From Nitrospira sp. bin75 (lineage in GTDB: Bacteria; Nitrospirota; Nitrospiria; Nitrospirales; UBA8639), in the NCBI GenBank assembly GCA_002238765.1, contig MPMZ01000020.1, positions 1 to 45,490 of the forward strand: DNA of 45,490 nucleotides, in the 5' to 3' direction. Positions within the stretch are counted from its first letter, which is position 1; the number at the start of each line of letters is the position of its first letter. Under the pieces are notes generated by a model that searched no databases, had not been told where the DNA came from, and worked only from the letters and a program-made list of their open reading frames with translations. The position numbers and the translations under genes are program-made. Positions 16,783 to 25,915 of the stretch are shown piece by piece.

Positions 16783-16866
16783 CGCGATTGGCCCTTCTGA
16801 ACCGATAGAAAGTCCCAAACAGGCTTATAGGAAGATCATACCGGTTCCCGATATATGTGTCATCCC

Positions 16867-17115
16867 TGTATGTGTTCAGTCATTCGTTGACAGAATGAGG
16901 AACTGCCCCCAAAGTGGGAACCAGAAAGAAGGGCTCTTTTTTCGCTCCCCTTTGTAAGGGGAGGCCAGGTGGGGTAGAGCCACGCGTCCATGGGGCATAG
17001 GGGTGCGCTGTTCCTGCCACATCTTCTACCTCCCCTTGCCCCTCCTTACAAAGGAGGGGAACTGAGGCACAGAAGGAGACAGCGGAAAGTGTCAATGAAT
17101 TAGTGAACATTTACA
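16867..17115 (+). mobile_element. MITE-like element, copy 2
   Basis: A 249-bp element almost identical to copy 1 apart from about 28 missing internal bases. The left end begins TGTATGTGTTCAGTCATTCG; the right end, read inward, begins TGTAAATGTTCACTAATTCA. The flanks ATCCC (16862-16866) and ATTCC (17116-17120) could be a 5-bp target duplication with one change. It lies 84 bp upstream of the copper ATPase start codon. Confidence 0.8.
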
Positions 17116-17176
17116 ATTCCCCGATCCCCGATTACAAACGTCGAGGACAGGCCATGATCGGGAACCAGCTTCTTCA

Positions 17177-17204
17177 GGTCGGATGACGCTACGCTCATCC
17201 GGCC
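17177..17204. repeat. REP-like hairpin
   Basis: A palindrome of the GGTCGGATGACGCT...CTCATCCGGCC type, matching the element at 4139-4164 with one arm change. It lies just past the 3' end of the cytochrome operon and may protect the transcript end. Confidence 0.6.
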
Positions 17205-17261
17205 TGCTTTTTCCGGGACCACGCCCGTAGGCGCCGAAGAAAGGGGGCTACCTCTCCTTGT

Positions 17262-19127
17262 TTACGGGGACGGAACTGCGAGCGGGGCGTTTGAGAGGAC
17301 GGGAGACACCGTTCCCACGTGATAGTTGTGACACGTCAGACACGAGTCTCCCGCTCGTTCCGACGTATGACACGTCGTGCACACGGTTTTCTGCATGGCT
17401 TGAAAGTTGCTGGAAAAGGTCAAGGGATCGGTATGCTCGAACGCTTTCATGACCTCGGCTTCAGGATTCAACGTGTGACACGTGAGACAGCCTTTGTCAT
17501 CCAGCAGGCTGAAATGGACCGCATGGGTGAAGCGCGTCACCTTCCGTTCATGGGCAACCGGACGTGCAGCGGCCCAATGAATCCGTTTCCCTTGACCGGC
17601 TTGGGCATCGACACTATGACACTTCATGCACAGCCCGGGGGCTTTGGGGTTCGATAAGTGTGTGAAGAACGCCGTGGCTGAACGTCCGTGTTGCGTTCCT
17701 GATGCTCGGGCGGTGAAATCCAGCCATGCGCACACGAAAGGATCCGCATGCCCGGTCGGACGATAGAGCAAGACGAAATCCGCATCCTGCCGATACCAGC
17801 CGCCGGTCATGACCTGCTTTTCACGTTCGCGGTCCAAGTGGATCTCCGCTTCACTCTCACGATCTTCAGGACGTACGACCCTCTTGCCGACCCCGTAAGC
17901 GGGCACCTCCATCATCAACCGGGGTAACCATTCCTGCTGCGCGGCGCGGATCACCTCAACCGGCAATTGACCGACCAATTTCGCCAGTTGCCGTGTGCCG
18001 AGGGTCGTTGTCGCCTGAAGCCGGTCCAATAGTTCCCGTTGTCCTCTCACGATCAGGTTGTACAGCAGCTTCTTGACGGCCCACATCATCCGTCCCACGG
18101 CGACGATCTCTTCATCGGTGGCATCCGACAAATCCGTGAAATCGTCGAACCTAGCCAGGAGGGCCAAATCTTCAGTCACGGCCGGGGCTCCTCCCAGCAG
18201 CAACTCCATGAACGGCGTGAGCCCTTCTTCCATGTTTTCATCAGCCGGCCATTCGCCAACGGAGATCCCATGCTCATGCAGCGTGTCCAGATCCACACCC
18301 GGCAAACGCAGGACCGCAATCCCCTTTGCTCCAGCCCGGCCAATGCCCTTGATCTGCCGGGCATGACAACTCGCGCAGGTGGTCTCAAAGGTTCCCGTTC
18401 TCATGGTTTGACCGGCATCATCAGGCTGATGGCAGTCGGTACACGTTTTGGGAGCATCTCTCTTGAATTCGCCGAGAAAGTGTTTTCCGATATGAGCAGT
18501 ATGGTCGAAGGCGATCCGGGCACGCCGTTTATAGGGGTAATTCGCAAAAGGCGGATGACCGCCGGTCAAATCCGAGAACGCCAGCGTATGGCAGGCATGG
18601 CATCGTTGCTCGTCCATCGCGGTCAGGTTGAAATGTTTGCCTCGATGCTCCTTGTGGCACGTCGCGCACGCCAAGGGCCCCTCTCCCGTCTGCGTCAAAC
18701 CCGCCCCCCAGGATGACACGGCCAGGAGAAACGACTTGTCGGTGGGCTGAGACATCAGGCTCAGACGTTCCGTGACAACAGCCAATTCCCTGGGGGAACG
18801 ACCGTGAGCTTCAGCTCCAAGTTGATGACACGTCAGACACAGCTTGCTGTTTTCCTGTCCCGTTCCCGATGCACCCAGGGCACCCACCCAGTCCGCGAGG
18901 TTTCCATGGGCGGCCGTGTGACAGTCCGTACACGCGGAGGTTCCATGTTGGAACGTGAGTTCTCCGGGAGACAAAAAGGCCGATCCTTTCGGGCCTGAAA
19001 GGAACAGCAGCGAGAGCCCGACTGTGAGCATGGAAAGCCAAAACGTCATTCGACGACGTGTGGCCCGAATGCCGAGATCGCGGCTGCCTCTCCGCTCCTC
19101 ATGACCTCCGCTGTCCGGCTCACGCAC
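17262..19127 (-). CDS. decaheme c-type cytochrome
   Basis: A 621-residue exported multiheme cytochrome. Ten CxxCH sites are visible, starting near residues 66, 97, 154, 176, 229, 251, 500, 547, 583 and 596. Thus six hemes precede and four follow a heme-free segment of about 244 residues (256-499), which looks helical at first and then beta-like. The signal anchor MTFWLSMLTVGLSLLFL is preceded by an Arg-rich extension when the GTG at 19127 is used; that start is 3 bases past the upstream stop codon, favouring coupled translation. ATG 19049 is the alternative. Last gene of a six-gene cytochrome operon. It is expected in the periplasm or at the outer membrane as an electron carrier; no enzymatic activity can be inferred. 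Confidence 0.88.
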   Translation of the reverse strand: MREPDSGGHEERRGSRDLGIRATRRRMTFWLSMLTVGLSLLFLSGPKGSAFLSPGELTFQHGTSACTDCHTAAHGNLADWVGALGASGTGQENSKLCLTCHQLGAEAHGRSPRELAVVTERLSLMSQPTDKSFLLAVSSWGAGLTQTGEGPLACATCHKEHRGKHFNLTAMDEQRCHACHTLAFSDLTGGHPPFANYPYKRRARIAFDHTAHIGKHFLGEFKRDAPKTCTDCHQPDDAGQTMRTGTFETTCASCHARQIKGIGRAGAKGIAVLRLPGVDLDTLHEHGISVGEWPADENMEEGLTPFMELLLGGAPAVTEDLALLARFDDFTDLSDATDEEIVAVGRMMWAVKKLLYNLIVRGQRELLDRLQATTTLGTRQLAKLVGQLPVEVIRAAQQEWLPRLMMEVPAYGVGKRVVRPEDRESEAEIHLDREREKQVMTGGWYRQDADFVLLYRPTGHADPFVCAWLDFTARASGTQHGRSATAFFTHLSNPKAPGLCMKCHSVDAQAGQGKRIHWAAARPVAHERKVTRFTHAVHFSLLDDKGCLTCHTLNPEAEVMKAFEHTDPLTFSSNFQAMQKTVCTTCHTSERAGDSCLTCHNYHVGTVSPVLSNAPLAVPSP

Positions 19128-19130
19128 GAG

Positions 19131-19955
19131 TTAATGCCCCCCCACCGTATAAGCCGATACCACGACCGCGTGAACCAATGCGAGAATCAGCAGGCTGTAG
19201 GACAATGGGATATGGATGAATAACCAGTACTTGAGCGTCCCCTGGAGGGCTTCCTGGAAATCGAGGTCGTCCTTCATGCGAATCAAGTCCCCCAACTCTT
19301 CCAGGCTTCCCCGCTCTTTCTCGCTCAGGAAACGATCCAGGGCACTCAGTTCGGTCAGGAGCGCTTGACGGAAGCCGGTGGACGCGAAGAGATGGCCCCA
19401 ATAATTGCGAGGACCTTCGATGAACGACGCCAGTCGCCGATCATAAAAATCTGCAAGCATCATTGAACGGGACTCGGAAACAGTCCGCTCCACGACAGCC
19501 TCAACCTTCTCGCGGAGGTTGTTTCGCATCGTGGGAATTCGCTCGAAGATCACCTTTTCCCCATGTGTCGCGAGTCGCCGGGGCAGCATTCTTGATAGGA
19601 CAAGCCCCACAAGCCCGCTGACGGCAACAGCCGCGTACAATAGCGCAAGCGTCAATTCCAAGGGACCGTTGGGGACACGCAGGCCAATATGCAGGATAAA
19701 CACTCCGATGGTCAGCAGGCCTGCAGAGACGTGAATCCTGAACCAATCGAGGGGTCTATCCGACGACAGGAAAGCGAGGCGCTTCAGATAATTGCACGTG
19801 ACCAGTATGAGGACCAGACCAAAGAGCAGCCATCCCGAGAGGAACGGCGCCCGGTACGGCGACATGAGGGATGCCGCGTAGACGCCGGCGAGAAGAAGCA
19901 TGAGCAGGCTCCAGATCGAGAGCGTACCCCAATGTCGTGCCACGAACGCCATCAT
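19131..19955 (-). CDS. membrane protein with diheme cytochrome b pattern
   Basis: A 274-residue integral membrane protein. Four hydrophobic helices lie in residues ~8-120 and one at ~243-271, with a charged soluble loop of about 115 residues between them. Two helices carry His pairs with identical spacing: H75/H89 and H248/H262, both His-x13-His, the arrangement that ligates two stacked b hemes in respiratory cytochromes b. I do not recognise a named family. Its start overlaps the tetraheme cytochrome stop by 4 bases (ATGA), and the decaheme gene follows after 3 bases. The likely role is to move electrons across the inner membrane between quinone or ferredoxin and the periplasmic hemes. Heme binding is inferred from the spacing. 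Confidence 0.7.
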   Translation of the reverse strand: MMAFVARHWGTLSIWSLLMLLLAGVYAASLMSPYRAPFLSGWLLFGLVLILVTCNYLKRLAFLSSDRPLDWFRIHVSAGLLTIGVFILHIGLRVPNGPLELTLALLYAAVAVSGLVGLVLSRMLPRRLATHGEKVIFERIPTMRNNLREKVEAVVERTVSESRSMMLADFYDRRLASFIEGPRNYWGHLFASTGFRQALLTELSALDRFLSEKERGSLEELGDLIRMKDDLDFQEALQGTLKYWLFIHIPLSYSLLILALVHAVVVSAYTVGGH

Positions 19956-21061
19956 CGGTCCGGCATCGCGGCAAGGGATGGACTATCTTGTGCGGTCACT
20001 CGTTCGGGCGGCCCTCCCGGCTTGCCTTTATATTGCTCCGGCTGTGGGAGGATTGGGTCCAGGGCGGTCATTTGGCTGCCGTGACGGGTGTTGGCCAGCT
20101 CTCGAGTCGCCGAGGCAATCGTCTCGGCCGCCTCCACCAGGGCGGCTTCATGACCGATCTTCAATTCGACCCCCTTGATGATCTTCAGGATTTCCTTGAT
20201 TTCCTGGATAGGGTTTGCCGCATCGATGGCCTGAAGCGTGTCCACGACACGTCGGACGTGCTTCGTCGTCGCGGTGACATACGTCCCTTCGCTCGTCGCC
20301 TTGGCCAAGGCACGAAGACCGTACTCCAGGTCGAGGGCTTTTCCCACCACGTAGAGCATGCGCTTACGCTCCGGGGACACCTCTTCATTTTTTTTGCCTT
20401 CAGAACGGAGAAACTTGTGGCGAATTTCACCCAGCGACCACGACACCAATTCAAAATCGTCACTCCGGGTTCGGTGCTCTCCGACGTTCACCAATTGTTC
20501 ATCGGACACGATGTGACATTGATAGCAGTTTGCCGCAAGACGATAGAGATCCCCGGGCCGGATCATGCCCGCTTGCTTGATTGCGGTCAGACGTTTGGCC
20601 TTATGCTCGGGCGTCTCGTGTTCACGGGTCACGTTCTTCCCGCCATACTCGCCATGAATCTTGAGCCAGTCCTTTGCCGGACCGTGGCACGATTCGCAGG
20701 AAATGCCGGCGATGGCTTTCACCTTGTTCCGCTTTTTCCCGGAGGTGAAGTGGCAGGTTACACAGGCTTCGGCCTTTTTCACGCGCTTGATTCCCATGTT
20801 GCCGGCAATCTCCTTGGCCTGTTTCTTGCGCGTGAACACTTTGAAGGTTTTGGAGTGCCCGGTCTCCCGCCAGACGTGCATTTCCGCTTTGTGGCATTCA
20901 CCGCATTCATCCGGACCTGCAATTTTCGAGGGATCATTCCCCAGAAAACCAGAAAAGTCCTTGGCCTCAGGCTTCACCTCGCTAGTCGAGAAGACCAGGA
21001 ATCCCAGCAAGATACTTAGCCATACCGGAACCGTTCGGATTGCGCCGTTCACAAGGTTCAT
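19952..21061 (-). CDS. tetraheme cytochrome c554-type protein
   Basis: A 369-residue exported cytochrome with an N-terminal hydrophobic segment (VPVWLSILLGFLVF). Four CxxCH sites occur near residues 53 (CGECH), 100 (CVTCH), 122 (CESCH) and 179 (CYQCH). The pattern CGECHKAEMHVWRETGHS...GISCESCHGP is that of the cytochrome c554/NrfA-like fold family, where such proteins are electron shuttles. The C-terminal ~150 residues lack heme and look helical, with a long charged segment. A GAGAGGTGA ribosome site precedes ATG 21061. The stop overlaps the next gene by 4 bases. Fourth gene of the cytochrome operon. Confidence 0.88.
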   Translation of the reverse strand: MNLVNGAIRTVPVWLSILLGFLVFSTSEVKPEAKDFSGFLGNDPSKIAGPDECGECHKAEMHVWRETGHSKTFKVFTRKKQAKEIAGNMGIKRVKKAEACVTCHFTSGKKRNKVKAIAGISCESCHGPAKDWLKIHGEYGGKNVTREHETPEHKAKRLTAIKQAGMIRPGDLYRLAANCYQCHIVSDEQLVNVGEHRTRSDDFELVSWSLGEIRHKFLRSEGKKNEEVSPERKRMLYVVGKALDLEYGLRALAKATSEGTYVTATTKHVRRVVDTLQAIDAANPIQEIKEILKIIKGVELKIGHEAALVEAAETIASATRELANTRHGSQMTALDPILPQPEQYKGKPGGPPERVTAQDSPSLAAMPDR

Positions 21062-21131
21062 GGGTCTGTCACCTCTCGAAGTGGTCAGGCATGGGGTTTA
21101 CGTTCATCACGGTGCATGCAAGTAACGATTC

Positions 21132-21599
21132 CTACGCGTCCAAAATCAGATTGCCCGTTGGAATGGAACTACACATCAAGCACAAACCGGCTGCCGGTCT
21201 CTCTTCAAGTGGTGCCACATGAGAGACGGCTCCGGACTTGATGGCCGTGAGACACCTGCCACAATTGCCTGCACGACATCCGAAACGCAGGTTGATGTCG
21301 TTTCTTTTGGCAAGTTCCAACAATGAGCCTACGCTCGGGTCCCATGTACACGTCCTGCAGGATTTGGCAAAGACGACTTCAACGCCGGGGAACGTGGCCG
21401 CGACTGCTGGTTCCGGACGCTCGTGCCCGGGATACTGCGCGTTTGCTGCCTGCACGCGGGGACGGAACCCTTCAAGGACCAGCCGGCGTTGTTGTTTTCT
21501 ATATCCGGCCTGACGCCATAGCGAGAGGAGCAACAGCGGTATCCGAATCAGGGCCATTCCGACAAGCCCGCCGCCGATTCCTTGCATCACCAACTCCAT
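21132..21599 (-). CDS. membrane-anchored 2Fe-2S ferredoxin
   Basis: A 155-residue protein. Residues ~5-28 form one transmembrane helix (IGGGLVGMALIRIPLLLLSL) followed by RQAGYRKQQRR, so by the positive-inside rule the C-terminal domain should face the cytoplasm. That domain (~72-155) is a plant-type 2Fe-2S ferredoxin: C108, C113 and C116 in FGCRAGNCGRC and C143 in CLMC, the usual C-x4-C-x2-C...C ligand set. An extra CRTC pair (81-84) precedes it. ATG 21599 is chosen because GGAGGG lies just upstream; an open frame reaching 21671 would overlap the porin gene. It is unusual to find such a protein between an outer-membrane barrel and periplasmic cytochromes. Confidence 0.85.
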   Translation of the reverse strand: MELVMQGIGGGLVGMALIRIPLLLLSLWRQAGYRKQQRRLVLEGFRPRVQAANAQYPGHERPEPAVAATFPGVEVVFAKSCRTCTWDPSVGSLLELAKRNDINLRFGCRAGNCGRCLTAIKSGAVSHVAPLEERPAAGLCLMCSSIPTGNLILDA

Positions 21600-21652
21600 A
21601 CTTGCCCTCCTGTCACAGTCTTGTCTTCCGCTGATTTCAACAGGTTGCCCCC

Positions 21653-23074
21653 TCAAAATTTCGTGAGCCATTCAAGCCGCGCGCCATAGGCCGGATCGCG
21701 TTCTTCCTGAACCGCTCCGAAGGCATCGAGTCGGGCAATAAAGTGGCGGCCGACGGCTTGTTGATACCGCAGGCCCGCGGCAAAGGCTCCACTCCGGTCC
21801 TCACGATTGTTCGTATTCTTTCGACCTCCCAACTCGACGATGAACTGTTTGCGGGTCCGATCGAGAAATTTCTGATACCCGAGACTACCTCCCACGGCAT
21901 TGTCGGCCCCGTTGCCCAGCGCGGCCCCATACCGGCCCAATCCCACCGCGGCAAACAGGATCCCGGTTCGACCAAGCGGCCCGCCGGTTTCAGGACCACG
22001 GATGGCCGAGGAAAATTCCCCGATCCCCCAAAACGTATTGAGATAGAGAAAGTCTTGGGTATGCTGCGGGGTCCAGGAAATTTCATTGAACACCAGTGTG
22101 CCGCGACTGGTTTGCGGCGTCTCTCGCTCCATCGGAAACGAAGTATTGAGGGTCGACGTCGTATTGAACGGTCCAATGCGCTGTACTCCCCGAATCCCGG
22201 CAAACAACGCATTGTCCGTGTTCTCCCCGGCTTCGAGGTAGACCAAGTCCAGGTCGATCGTCGTGGTTGGAAAGTCCGTTTCCGTAAACAGGCCGAAAAG
22301 CTGGGCATCAGGATCGAGCCGGTTGTCGTCGCGGTACACGTTGTCCCAGGCATAGAAGACGCTGATCCGTACGTTTGACGTGCCCGGCAGTTGAAGGTTG
22401 TTCCGGACCAGGGAAACGGCGTCGGGATTGCCCAGGCCTCCGCTGTTGATCAGGATGCCGTCCTGAAAGAGCACGGCTTGCCGGCCGACCGAAAAGCCAA
22501 TGTCGAGCATCCTGGTATCTCCAGTGTCGAGCTTAGGAAAAATCTCCCCCAAATCCCCTTCAAAGAATAAAGTCCTGACCACCGCGTTGAATTCGTCCCG
22601 AAAATCTCCATCAGGCTCGAACGACACGCTGGTAAACCGGTTGTCCCGATCCAGAGGTCGCAATCCGATCAACAGACGATCCGAAGCCGACAATTTGAGA
22701 TTGGCGAAAAGGTCGAGACGGTGCGCCCATTCGGAAACGCGCGTCGCGCCGTTGTCGACGGTCTGCACGGCCATCCGGTGCGTCCCGAACACCCAGAGGG
22801 AGGGACGCCACACCGCGCCGGTCGGCAGTTCGACTTCCGGCCCGAGCGGGCCGGTCCCGAGAAACGGCTCCCCCAATTCCAAGATCAGCGACGGCCGGTC
22901 CGGCACCTCCTCCACTTGCAGCGGGATGGGCATATCCGACAACCGACTGCCGGACTCCGTCTCCCTGGATTGTTCTCCTTCTTTGTCCCGGCTCCCCTCG
23001 CCGGCCCATGCCGGCGCACAGCCAAACAGCAACGCCAACGCCACGCCGACGAAAAAACCGGCTCGTATCTTCAT
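21653..23074 (-). CDS. outer-membrane beta-barrel protein (putative porin partner of cytochromes)
   Basis: A 473-residue protein with a signal peptide (MKIRAGFFVGVALALLFGC..., cleavage near AWA) and alternating amphipathic strands through the rest (for example FGTHRMAVQT, HRLDLFANLKLSASDRLLIG, SNVRISVFYAW, RHFIARLDAFGAV). It ends in a terminal phenylalanine (LEWLTKF), the C-terminal signature of BAM-inserted barrels. No specific family is recognised. Its ATG overlaps the pentaheme cytochrome stop by 4 bases. That tight coupling to a multiheme cytochrome is the usual layout of porin-cytochrome conduits that carry electrons through the outer membrane; the conduit role is inference. Confidence 0.75.
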   Translation of the reverse strand: MKIRAGFFVGVALALLFGCAPAWAGEGSRDKEGEQSRETESGSRLSDMPIPLQVEEVPDRPSLILELGEPFLGTGPLGPEVELPTGAVWRPSLWVFGTHRMAVQTVDNGATRVSEWAHRLDLFANLKLSASDRLLIGLRPLDRDNRFTSVSFEPDGDFRDEFNAVVRTLFFEGDLGEIFPKLDTGDTRMLDIGFSVGRQAVLFQDGILINSGGLGNPDAVSLVRNNLQLPGTSNVRISVFYAWDNVYRDDNRLDPDAQLFGLFTETDFPTTTIDLDLVYLEAGENTDNALFAGIRGVQRIGPFNTTSTLNTSFPMERETPQTSRGTLVFNEISWTPQHTQDFLYLNTFWGIGEFSSAIRGPETGGPLGRTGILFAAVGLGRYGAALGNGADNAVGGSLGYQKFLDRTRKQFIVELGGRKNTNNREDRSGAFAAGLRYQQAVGRHFIARLDAFGAVQEERDPAYGARLEWLTKF

Positions 23075-24870
23075 TGGACGGCGTTATCGTCCTTTGAGGA
23101 AACGTCAAACGTTACATTGCGCTCCCATAACGTCACGTGTCCCGCCAACACCCCCTCGGCCACGCCGCGGGGACTCATGCCATAGTCGAATCCAACCTCC
23201 TTGATGTCATCGATCAAATTGACCGGCACCATGCCGAGGATCAGCTTGATGTTGGCGGCATAGGGGCCGTTGCCCGTCAATCGGGAGCCCGGGATTTCGT
23301 ACACCGCCCAGCGACTCCCATTCGGTTCGATGTTCTTCCTGTGCTTGCGCACGTTCACCGGACGTCCCAGCAGGATGCTCGACTGCGTCAACGGCCGCAG
23401 GAACGGCAGCGGATCAAACGAAGGATTGACCGGGATGATCCGTTCACTCTCGCTGCCGCGGAAATTCCGGGTGACGAATTTCGATTGCAGGTTGAACAGG
23501 TAGGGATCCGGCGGCAACTCACCATTGTGAACGTACAGCGAATGCAAATCACGGAGATCGCCGTTGGGGTCCAAGTCGCCGGACTTGAACACGACCGCTC
23601 CATCGCGGTCCGTCACCGTGACCTGCAAATAGACGAGGCGTTCCGCATCAAAGCCGCTCGGCACACCATGGCCAGTGGTGCCGTTCTTCACTTGCGCCTT
23701 GAAACGGATTCCCTGCTCATCGGCTTGTTTTATCGCCACCGCGCCGAGCACAAACCCTTGCTGCAACAACAGCTTTCGCTGAGCCATGTATTTGTCCAGC
23801 AACGCAAATTGCTGCTCCAGAATGTCACGGGCGTCATATCGATCATCAACGGAATCCCAACGTTCGGGGAACACCGTGTCACCAGGGACTTTGTCCTCAA
23901 ACTCATCGGTCCCCCACCCTGCTTCATAGTCAAACGTCAGCCACTCCTTGATGGTGGCCAACTTTGCAGCTTCCGGATTGTGCGGAAAGATGCCCGGATG
24001 GATCACCGAATGATCCGGCCCGGGAAACATATGGTTGGTGCGCTTTCGCGGCTTGGTCTCCACGTCTCCGACTATAGCGGCAGGCGCCAGGGCGTATCCC
24101 GACGGTCGACCGGGTTCCGTTCCCATATGGCAGTCCTGACAAGTGATCCCCTGTTTGGCGGCCGGCGAAGTCTTATACTCGCTGAAGGTTTCCTCAAGAC
24201 GAAATCCATTGAGCAGATTGACGTCGTGACACTGACCACAAAATCCGGGGGTGACGAGTGTGAAAAATTTCTTCGCATCGGTATGGATGGCGCGGCCCGG
24301 TTTGCCCCGTTCGGTATTGACCCGATACTCGTCGCTTTCGATCACGCGCCGGAGTTCCGTGTTACCAGTCGGCCCGTAAACCGGGTCGAACACGTCGCCT
24401 TCCACGCTCTTCACCCGCCCGCTTTCTTTCCCATAGGCTTGGTTGACCCGGTGACAGACGATGCAGGTAATGCCCTCACGAGAAACCGGATGCCGGTCAA
24501 CGTTGCTGATGAATAAGGGCTCTCCGAGATTCATCCCCACGCGGGTGTGGCAACGGATACAAAAATCGCCGTTGGTGCCGTTGGTCCGCTTGAGTATGGT
24601 GCCATGCATCGCATTGAACACGGGACTCATCTGAGCATAGGCGTGCGGGGATACCGACCATTCCCGGAAATGATCCTCGTGGCACGTTTTACAGGAGGCT
24701 GCGGAGGGAAATCGATTGTCCACAAAGGATGCCCCGTGGGCGGCGCCTGCAGAGACTTCTTTCTCGTCCTGACGGTCGTCGCTTGGCCGGGCTTCCGCAT
24801 GCGATAGGATTGCTGAGGCAACCAGTGCGACCAATGGAAGAACAAGACTTCCGAATTTGAGGAGTGGCAT
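23071..24870 (-). CDS. pentaheme c-type cytochrome, first gene of the cytochrome operon
   Basis: A 599-residue exported cytochrome. The signal peptide is MPLLKFGSLVLPLVALVAS..., with cleavage near HAEA. Five CxxCH sites start near residues 60 (CKTCH), 104 (CIRCH), 136 (CIVCH), 211 (CGQCH) and 244 (CQDCH). The first part resembles the c554 fold (SCKTCHEDHFREWSVSPH...GITCIVCHRV). The C-terminal ~350 residues have no heme and look beta-rich, with GHGVPSGFDAERLVYLQVTV as a marker seen in other multiheme cytochromes. ATG 24870 begins the signal; an in-frame extension to TTG 25002 would read through an 8-bp tandem repeat and lacks a ribosome site, so it is rejected. Overlaps the porin gene by 4 bases. 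Confidence 0.87.
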   Translation of the reverse strand: MPLLKFGSLVLPLVALVASAILSHAEARPSDDRQDEKEVSAGAAHGASFVDNRFPSAASCKTCHEDHFREWSVSPHAYAQMSPVFNAMHGTILKRTNGTNGDFCIRCHTRVGMNLGEPLFISNVDRHPVSREGITCIVCHRVNQAYGKESGRVKSVEGDVFDPVYGPTGNTELRRVIESDEYRVNTERGKPGRAIHTDAKKFFTLVTPGFCGQCHDVNLLNGFRLEETFSEYKTSPAAKQGITCQDCHMGTEPGRPSGYALAPAAIVGDVETKPRKRTNHMFPGPDHSVIHPGIFPHNPEAAKLATIKEWLTFDYEAGWGTDEFEDKVPGDTVFPERWDSVDDRYDARDILEQQFALLDKYMAQRKLLLQQGFVLGAVAIKQADEQGIRFKAQVKNGTTGHGVPSGFDAERLVYLQVTVTDRDGAVVFKSGDLDPNGDLRDLHSLYVHNGELPPDPYLFNLQSKFVTRNFRGSESERIIPVNPSFDPLPFLRPLTQSSILLGRPVNVRKHRKNIEPNGSRWAVYEIPGSRLTGNGPYAANIKLILGMVPVNLIDDIKEVGFDYGMSPRGVAEGVLAGHVTLWERNVTFDVSSKDDNAVQ

Positions 24871-25309
24871 CAACGCCCCCAACAAAGGTAGTTGGGTAGT
24901 TGGGTAGTTGGGTAGTTGGGTAGTTGGGTAGTTGGGTAGTTGGGTAGTTGGTGCACAATCGTCCTGACATTTTTCCGAACTATACCGAACTTCATGAAAC
25001 AAGATTGACAGCTTTCAACTACATTGCATGTCGTGAGGAAAATCTGTTGGCAAACAAGCCTTGCAAGTCCAGAGGCTCTGCGTAGCAGGCAAATTTTCGC
25101 GGATTATAATGGTTTCAAAGTACCTGTCAATACGTAGATATCAGAACGGTCATTCCAGGGCAAAATAGACCAATGAGTTCAGGAATGGCCATAATAAAAA
25201 GTTGAAAATGTCGCATTCTTGCTCATTGGCAAACCTTGTTCTTACACAGTAGAATAGTGATTGTTTCCTTGGATCAGAGCCACAGTCGTCACCTGAAAAG
25301 GAGTCGTCC
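24871..25309. other. divergent intergenic region: cytochrome operon and glutathione peroxidase promoters
   Basis: No gene is seen. The left part is the leader of the cytochrome operon with the 8-bp tandem repeat at 24887-24950. The right part is AT-rich and should contain promoters for both directions, but I cannot assign hexamers with confidence; a lone TATAAT occurs at 25105-25110 on the plus strand without a good -35. AAGGAG before 25310 is the ribosome site of the peroxidase gene. Confidence 0.55.
24887..24950. repeat. tandem repeat, 8 perfect copies of an 8-bp unit (GGTAGTTG)
   Basis: Eight uninterrupted copies of GGTAGTTG (CAACTACC on the gene strand) lie 17 to 80 bases before the start codon of the pentaheme cytochrome gene at 24870. 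Perfect short units of this kind are prone to slipped-strand changes in number, so the array could tune or switch expression of the cytochrome operon. Confidence 0.95.
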
Positions 25310-25915
25310 ATGAAACGATCTTCAAATCTCGCCTTGCTGATCGGCTGCATGACCGGCGTGTTGTTGACCATCACGTTCGGAGCCTGTAACCCAGGGTACT
25401 CGGCCGAAACCTCCGCCGGCGGCGATGCTACGGTCCCAGTGCATGCTTTCACGTTGAACGATATCGACGGGAATCCGCTCGGCCTGGACACCTTTACGGG
25501 AAAAGTCCTGCTCCTGGTGAATACCGCCAGTATGTGCGGCAATACGCCCCAATACGAAGGGTTGCAAACGTTGTATGAACAGTATCGGGAACGGGGTTTG
25601 GAAATTCTGGCGTTTCCGGCCAATAATTTCGGAAAGCAGGAACCCGGCACGAACGAGGAGATCAAATCCTTTTGTTACACCAAATACGCTTTGGAGTTTC
25701 CCTTATTCAGCAAAATCAGCGTCAAGGGAGAGGATATGCATCCCCTCTACCACTACCTGACCACGCAAAGCCCGTTCCCCGGCGAGATCGAGTGGAACTT
25801 TCAGAAATTTCTGGTGAATCGGGAAGGAGAGATCATTGCCCGTTATCGACCCGGGCTGAAACCGCTCTCGGCCCAAATCGTTCAGGACATTGAACGCGCG
25901 CTTGACAAGAGTTGA
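25310..25915 (+). CDS. exported glutathione peroxidase-like thiol peroxidase
   Basis: A 201-residue peroxidase of the glutathione peroxidase family (PF00255), reducing hydroperoxides, probably with thioredoxin-like partners. Catalytic residues are visible: Cys76 in NTASMCGNTPQY (cysteine, not selenocysteine), Gln110 in FPANNFGKQEPG, and Trp162-Asn163 in EWNFQKFLV. The common cysteine of FPCNQF is alanine here. An N-terminal hydrophobic segment ends in FGAC (Cys26), a weak lipobox, so the protein is exported and perhaps lipidated, unlike the usual cytoplasmic enzyme. AAGGAG precedes ATG 25310. It is transcribed away from the cytochrome operon, where periplasmic peroxide defence would make sense. 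Confidence 0.9.
   Translation: MKRSSNLALLIGCMTGVLLTITFGACNPGYSAETSAGGDATVPVHAFTLNDIDGNPLGLDTFTGKVLLLVNTASMCGNTPQYEGLQTLYEQYRERGLEILAFPANNFGKQEPGTNEEIKSFCYTKYALEFPLFSKISVKGEDMHPLYHYLTTQSPFPGEIEWNFQKFLVNREGEIIARYRPGLKPLSAQIVQDIERALDKS

Follow-up and report, generated by a model that had tools for sequence, protein, structure and literature searches.

The closest described system to the locus studied here is PCC4, predicted by He et al. (2017), which combines a porin, cytochromes with four, five and ten hemes, and a five-helix inner-membrane protein carrying an SGXXG motif and two WX3HX13H motifs (PMC5566968). A redox gene lies upstream of the tetraheme gene, and subgroup II adds a gene with PF13247 upstream of the inner-membrane protein; one PCC4 record has PF13247 and the inner-membrane protein annotated as a single gene (PMC5566968). 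The listed hosts are Proteobacteria and Planctomycetes, PCC4 occurs in iron oxidisers, and the model proposed for it is electron uptake to quinone (PMC5566968). A 2026 cave metagenome paper names PCC4 in passing only, and we found no experimental test of PCC4 in the literature searched. For the pentaheme component, the cytochrome c552 of T. tepidum, ExtKL and cable-bacteria cytochromes have been grouped as one family (PMC11976967); the c552 of PDB entry 5ze8 is termed low-potential in the title of a paper cited there.

The window analysed here, a stretch of 45,490 nucleotides from Nitrospira sp. bin75 (contig MPMZ01000020.1), carries on its minus strand a run of six genes, A-B-C-D-E-F, from 24870 down to 17262, with all frames open (Table 1). 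CxxCH motifs number 5 in A, 4 in D, 10 in F and 0 in B, C and E (19 in total), and the intergenic spacings calculated from the coordinates are -4, 53, 70, -4 and 3 bases, in agreement with the gene number, motif total and spacings of an initial annotation made from the sequence alone. That annotation had not recognised the combination as a described system; PCC4 already predicts it (He et al., 2017; PMC5566968). The four-, five- and ten-heme cytochromes of PCC4 have their counterparts in D, A and F. E has five helices, with SGXXG on helix 4 and WX3HX13H on helices 3 and 5, and the redox gene C immediately precedes the tetraheme gene D. The PF13247 gene of subgroup II was not found in the window and is lacking in subgroup I too; it is present at locus L016, from another family of the same order, and fused at L047, also from another family. 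We therefore call the operon PCC4-like on the described features and not by sequence homology to published members. With a probability of about 0.72, we consider that this porin-cytochrome operon would encode a redox chain across both membranes.

Table 1. Features of the operon and its surroundings, in window coordinates.
Feature	Position	Strand	Remarks
Cassette, promoter and six genes	16863..25222		about 8.36 kb; breakpoints from blastn for G010 and G003; G006 and G011 have a similar gap
Sigma-70-type promoter, TTGACA-16-TATAAT	25103..25130	-	12/12 matches to consensus
Perfect 8-bp tandem repeat (8.1 copies) immediately preceding A, 5' leader	24887..24951		absent in congeners
A, pentaheme cytochrome c	23071..24870	-	599 aa; 5 CxxCH; Cytochrome_C554 match
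B, probable outer-membrane beta-barrel (porin)	21653..23074	-	473 aa; signal peptide; C-terminal K-F
C, N-terminal membrane helix and 2Fe-2S domain (Fer2)	21132..21599	-	155 aa; PF00111, E 5e-8
D, tetraheme cytochrome, c554 family	19952..21061	-	369 aa; 4 CxxCH; PF13435, E 1e-14
E, predicted five-helix inner-membrane diheme b protein	19131..19955	-	274 aa; 15-sequence alignment, structure model
F, inner-membrane-anchored periplasmic decaheme cytochrome	17262..19127	-	621 aa; 10 CxxCH; N-terminal helix

Seven promoter-like sites were found in the search, compared with 3.3 expected in shuffled sequence. A TTGACA element with a -10 element resembling TATACT, TATATT or TATAGA occupies the same place upstream of A in four congeners (L012, L013, L014, L072). 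The leader repeat may be prone to slippage or may have arisen in assembly. A glutathione-peroxidase-like gene neighbours the operon at 25310-25915. Elsewhere in the same genome (L070:1330-6159), a 1154-aa twin-arginine-type molybdoenzyme is followed by a 429-aa 4Fe-4S protein; we take this pair, by recognition, to be like NxrA/NxrB of the Nitrospira-type periplasmic nitrite oxidoreductase, and a search with the nitrate-reductase alpha model stayed below its cut-off.

The two His-x13-His pairs pointed out in the initial annotation are present in E, where the motifs read W71-x3-H75-x13-H89, SG113-xx-G117 and W244-x3-H248-x13-H262. Across 15 E relatives, down to 21% identity, H75, H89, H248 and H262 were the only invariant histidines, and W71, W244 and S113-G114-xx-G117 were also conserved. 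In the structure model of E (pLDDT 71), five long helices cross the membrane (2-30, 35-59, 68-90, 98-128 and the end of 212-272), and a loop that is itself helical connects helices 4 and 5. Inspection of the positive charges at the helix ends suggests that this loop and the N-terminus lie on the cytoplasmic side, and the N-terminus is also placed there because a 4Fe-4S protein is fused to it in L047. E gave no PDB fold match below 0.001, no PDB sequence match and no confident Pfam match; its relatives showed weak Pfam matches to b561 and hydrogenase cytochrome b.

C begins with a hydrophobic helix that is followed by a Fer2 domain, and the charged stretch that we noted by inspection after the helix leads us to predict a cytoplasmic 2Fe-2S domain. 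In the L016 orthologue, FAD- and NAD-binding domains stand between the helix and Fer2, making it an NAD(P)H-flavin-2Fe-2S reductase. All operon-bearing congeners have the short C without flavin and NAD(P)H domains, and the C of the window looks like an internally shortened form that the genus has in common. A search run without a positive control found no close copy of the missing domains elsewhere in the genome or genus.

The relatives of E have cytoplasmic-type redox proteins at a second position. A cNMP/4Fe-4S protein is encoded directly before E in L016, and a protein of the FAD-NAD(P)H/cNMP/4Fe-4S type occupies this position in L017, L018, L045, L046 and L048. L047 encodes a single 828-aa protein in which E is fused to the 4Fe-4S part. 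As judged from gene order and fusion, E is constantly linked to a redox protein of cytoplasmic type, and we regard this as the main new result of our analysis. In several families, FHA and cyclic-nucleotide-binding domains accompany the module of b protein and decaheme cytochrome (for example, L047:7150-8199 and L017:10019-11731), which may point to a control of electron flow by signals.

In the chain that we propose, the cytoplasmic 2Fe-2S centres of C would exchange electrons with the inner face of E; through this diheme b protein, electrons would cross the inner membrane and reach the anchored decaheme cytochrome F. The tetraheme cytochrome D would bridge the periplasm, and the pentaheme cytochrome A, at or in the barrel B, would pass electrons through the outer membrane. 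We infer the protein-protein contacts, the barrel fold and the heme loading. The cytoplasmic pool, rather than quinone, is probably the partner of E. A low-potential cytoplasmic donor and an inside-negative membrane potential favour outward electron flow. Nitrite, Mn(II) and Fe(II) donate electrons at potentials too high for ferredoxin or NAD(P)H to be reduced unless energy is supplied. For Mn(II) the gap is near 1 volt (PMC9040806). No energy-coupling subunit was recognised. Because the inside-negative membrane potential and the redox potentials favour the outward direction, we lean slightly towards NAD(P)H or ferredoxin as the donor, with the acceptor outside the cell or in the periplasm, and hold this to be likelier than uptake. 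The opposite direction, from outside to the cytoplasmic pool, had been proposed in the initial annotation and is unsupported: it would run uphill to ferredoxin or NAD(P)H.

An alternative is the uptake proposed by He et al., in which the same complex would work inward and be linked to quinone: electrons from an outside donor such as Fe(II) would pass through the porin and the five-, four- and ten-heme cytochromes and reach quinone at E. This is the 2017 model, and PCC4 is found in iron oxidisers (PMC5566968). The nitrite-oxidoreductase-like pair in the host genus also speaks for it, as it suggests an organism that probably lives by oxidising high-potential donors. So does the weak resemblance of E relatives to b561 and hydrogenase cytochrome b, some of which use quinones. 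However, the flavin and Fe-S proteins that stand beside E or are fused to it in relatives would be needless for a purely quinone-reactive b protein, and we regard the inward, quinone-linked working of the complex as rather unlikely.

The inner part of the proposed outward chain is also found apart from the outer part. Outside the genus it consists of an Fe-S/flavin protein, E and a multiheme cytochrome, often with D; a multiheme cytochrome directly follows E at all E loci read except L048. This inner part stands beside other outer-membrane-type genes in L045 and L046, and none were seen nearby in L017, L050 and L051. D scored 46 bits with the CycA c554 model, below the cut-off. Relatives of F carry an 8-Cys segment before the membrane helix in L012-L016, a domain that F of the window and of G004 lacks, and an FHA-type domain in L017 and L045. 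In the decaheme protein of L012 (L012:5743-7830, residues 20-90), a four-cysteine motif (W.C...C..GP...G.C...C.P) occurs twice before the helix and is lost in the window; these repeats had no Pfam match and possibly bind metal or Fe-S.

A has a Sec-type signal, a five-heme region and a C-terminal non-heme domain of 340 aa. Its match to the pentaheme c552 5ze8 (E 4e-16) covers the region of the five hemes and, in part, the C-terminal domain, and the ExtKL model matched it weakly, well below the cut-off. A is remote from the family of T. tepidum c552, ExtKL and the cable-bacteria cytochromes, and differs from it in being paired with a probable barrel gene. Five hemes, against ten in MtrA, is short for crossing the outer membrane. 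B adjoins A wherever both are readable, and the pair recurs in L047. The C-terminal Phe of B pointed out in the initial annotation was found (ARLEWLTKF), with the final K-F invariant among relatives. B matched no Pfam family, including any porin model, and no PDB sequence; the periodicity of its hydrophobicity was not above that of shuffles (z 0.9), and AlphaFold, run on a shallow alignment of six close sequences, gave a pLDDT of 28. A home-made and no more than suggestive barrel score, driven mainly by the C-terminal motif in B and calibrated on a small set, was intermediate for eight B relatives (0.38-0.50), compared with at most 0.29 for 33 non-barrel proteins and at least 0.54 for ten E. 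coli barrel proteins. B is likely to be an outer-membrane beta-barrel.

These properties of A also bear on a second alternative, that A is a periplasmic or surface reductase, for example of metals, nitrite, hydroxylamine or peroxide, and B the porin for its substrate. The relationship of A to the low-potential c552 5ze8 and, weakly, to ExtKL, its large non-heme domain and the glutathione-peroxidase-like gene adjoining the operon are all compatible with such an enzyme. We nevertheless judge it improbable, as A and B always neighbour each other and the full trans-membrane electron chain accompanies them in the majority of genomes, and He et al. assign porin-cytochrome pairs to extracellular transfer (PMC5566968).

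The order A-B-C-D-E-F was intact in three congeners (L012, L013, L014), with protein identities of 54-83%, and was kept in L016 with one gene added; parts of the operon lie on broken contigs in two further congeners. Of 396 Nitrospirota genomes searched with profiles, 9 contained A and about 15 a full-length relative of E, and plasmid searches with A and E revealed no PCC4 cluster. Among 14 congeners, A and E were present together in 6 and jointly absent in 8, including two single-contig genomes; the chance of this co-occurrence is 1/3003 if the two were placed independently and relatedness is ignored. In four of the eight congeners lacking the block (G010, G003, G006, G011), it is missing at the same locus with the flanking genes joined. 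The blastn breakpoints lie at window positions 16862/25223 for G010 and 16854/25219 for G003, and are 41-45 bases apart in those genomes. Promoter and six genes come and go, by this comparison, as a single block. Values of dN/dS against the window were 0.13-0.34 for all six genes, short C included, which indicates purifying selection on each of them. We conclude that the six genes are a real, well-conserved unit that is functional by sequence criteria. A trans-envelope electron conduit that includes a diheme b protein and a cytoplasmic ferredoxin, as the initial annotation proposed, is well supported as a prediction from gene order, co-occurrence, the cassette and the relatives.

Some copies depart from this pattern. 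In G004 (MEX2-MAG12), A and D are split by frameshifts (L071:9433-11681, L019:1718-2816), through assembly error or decay. Between G004 (L019:1180-1647) and the window, C has a dS of 0.14, compared with 0.50 and 0.63 for the neighbouring B and E, which suggests recombination inside the operon. G015 keeps A-B alone, without the inner-membrane part, near a transposase-like gene. A functionless grouping, decayed or generated by assembly, would account for those frameshifts, for the A-B remnant and for the domains that C (FAD/NAD) and F (8-Cys) lack relative to L016, but it is largely refuted by the six open frames, the retained promoter, dN/dS well below 1 even in C, and the sharing of the short C by all operon-bearing congeners, and we give it hardly any weight.

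For PCC4, the relatives provide the inner-membrane subunit with a cytoplasmic partner and so change the predicted electron source, and they show the operon as a cassette that is either present or absent within a genus carrying nitrite-oxidoreductase-like genes. If the proposed chain is correct, minerals could receive electrons from NAD(P)H or ferredoxin that bypass the quinone pool. In outline, a route from NAD(P)H to the outside without quinone is known from the NOX and ferric reductases of eukaryotes; to our knowledge, such a bypass is not established for Gram-negative surface electron transfer. Tentatively, and with somewhat less than even confidence, we extend the proposal to a quinone-independent line in several Nitrospirota families, leading from the cytoplasmic Fe-S/NAD(P)H pool to the surface via a NOX-like b protein; the modules on the cytoplasmic side (flavin, cNMP, FHA, 4Fe-4S) and those of the outer membrane would be exchangeable. 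PCC4 would then be a signal-gated, NAD(P)H- or ferredoxin-driven electron exporter, not an iron oxidase.

Several known systems resemble the operon in part. MtrAB, MtoAB and PioAB have a porin beside a periplasmic multiheme cytochrome, as is probable here; they were rejected, as the DmsE/MtrA model scored 31 and 24 bits against a cut-off of 192 and B matched no porin model. The number of hemes and the models also led us to reject PCC_1 of Manganitrophus, which has a dodecaheme cytochrome. PCC3 (He et al., 2017) has an inner-membrane protein with the same motifs, a porin and multiheme cytochromes, but its very high heme counts and extracellular cytochrome set it apart from the window, where the maximum is 10. 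NOX and ferric reductases share with E the two HX13H pairs on helices 3 and 5 and, in the relatives, the cytoplasmic flavin/NAD(P)H partner; here, in contrast, the subunits are separate and electrons would be passed to cytochromes c. PF01794 gave no significant match on E and weak matches in 3 of the 15 relatives (E 0.06 at best). PCC4 is the closest: like it, the window has no large extracellular cytochrome, whereas the host belongs to Nitrospirota and the redox gene is reduced to a membrane helix and a 2Fe-2S domain. To PCC4 our analysis adds Nitrospirota as hosts, a shortened variant with ferredoxin alone, and the evidence from relatives for a direct cytoplasmic link.
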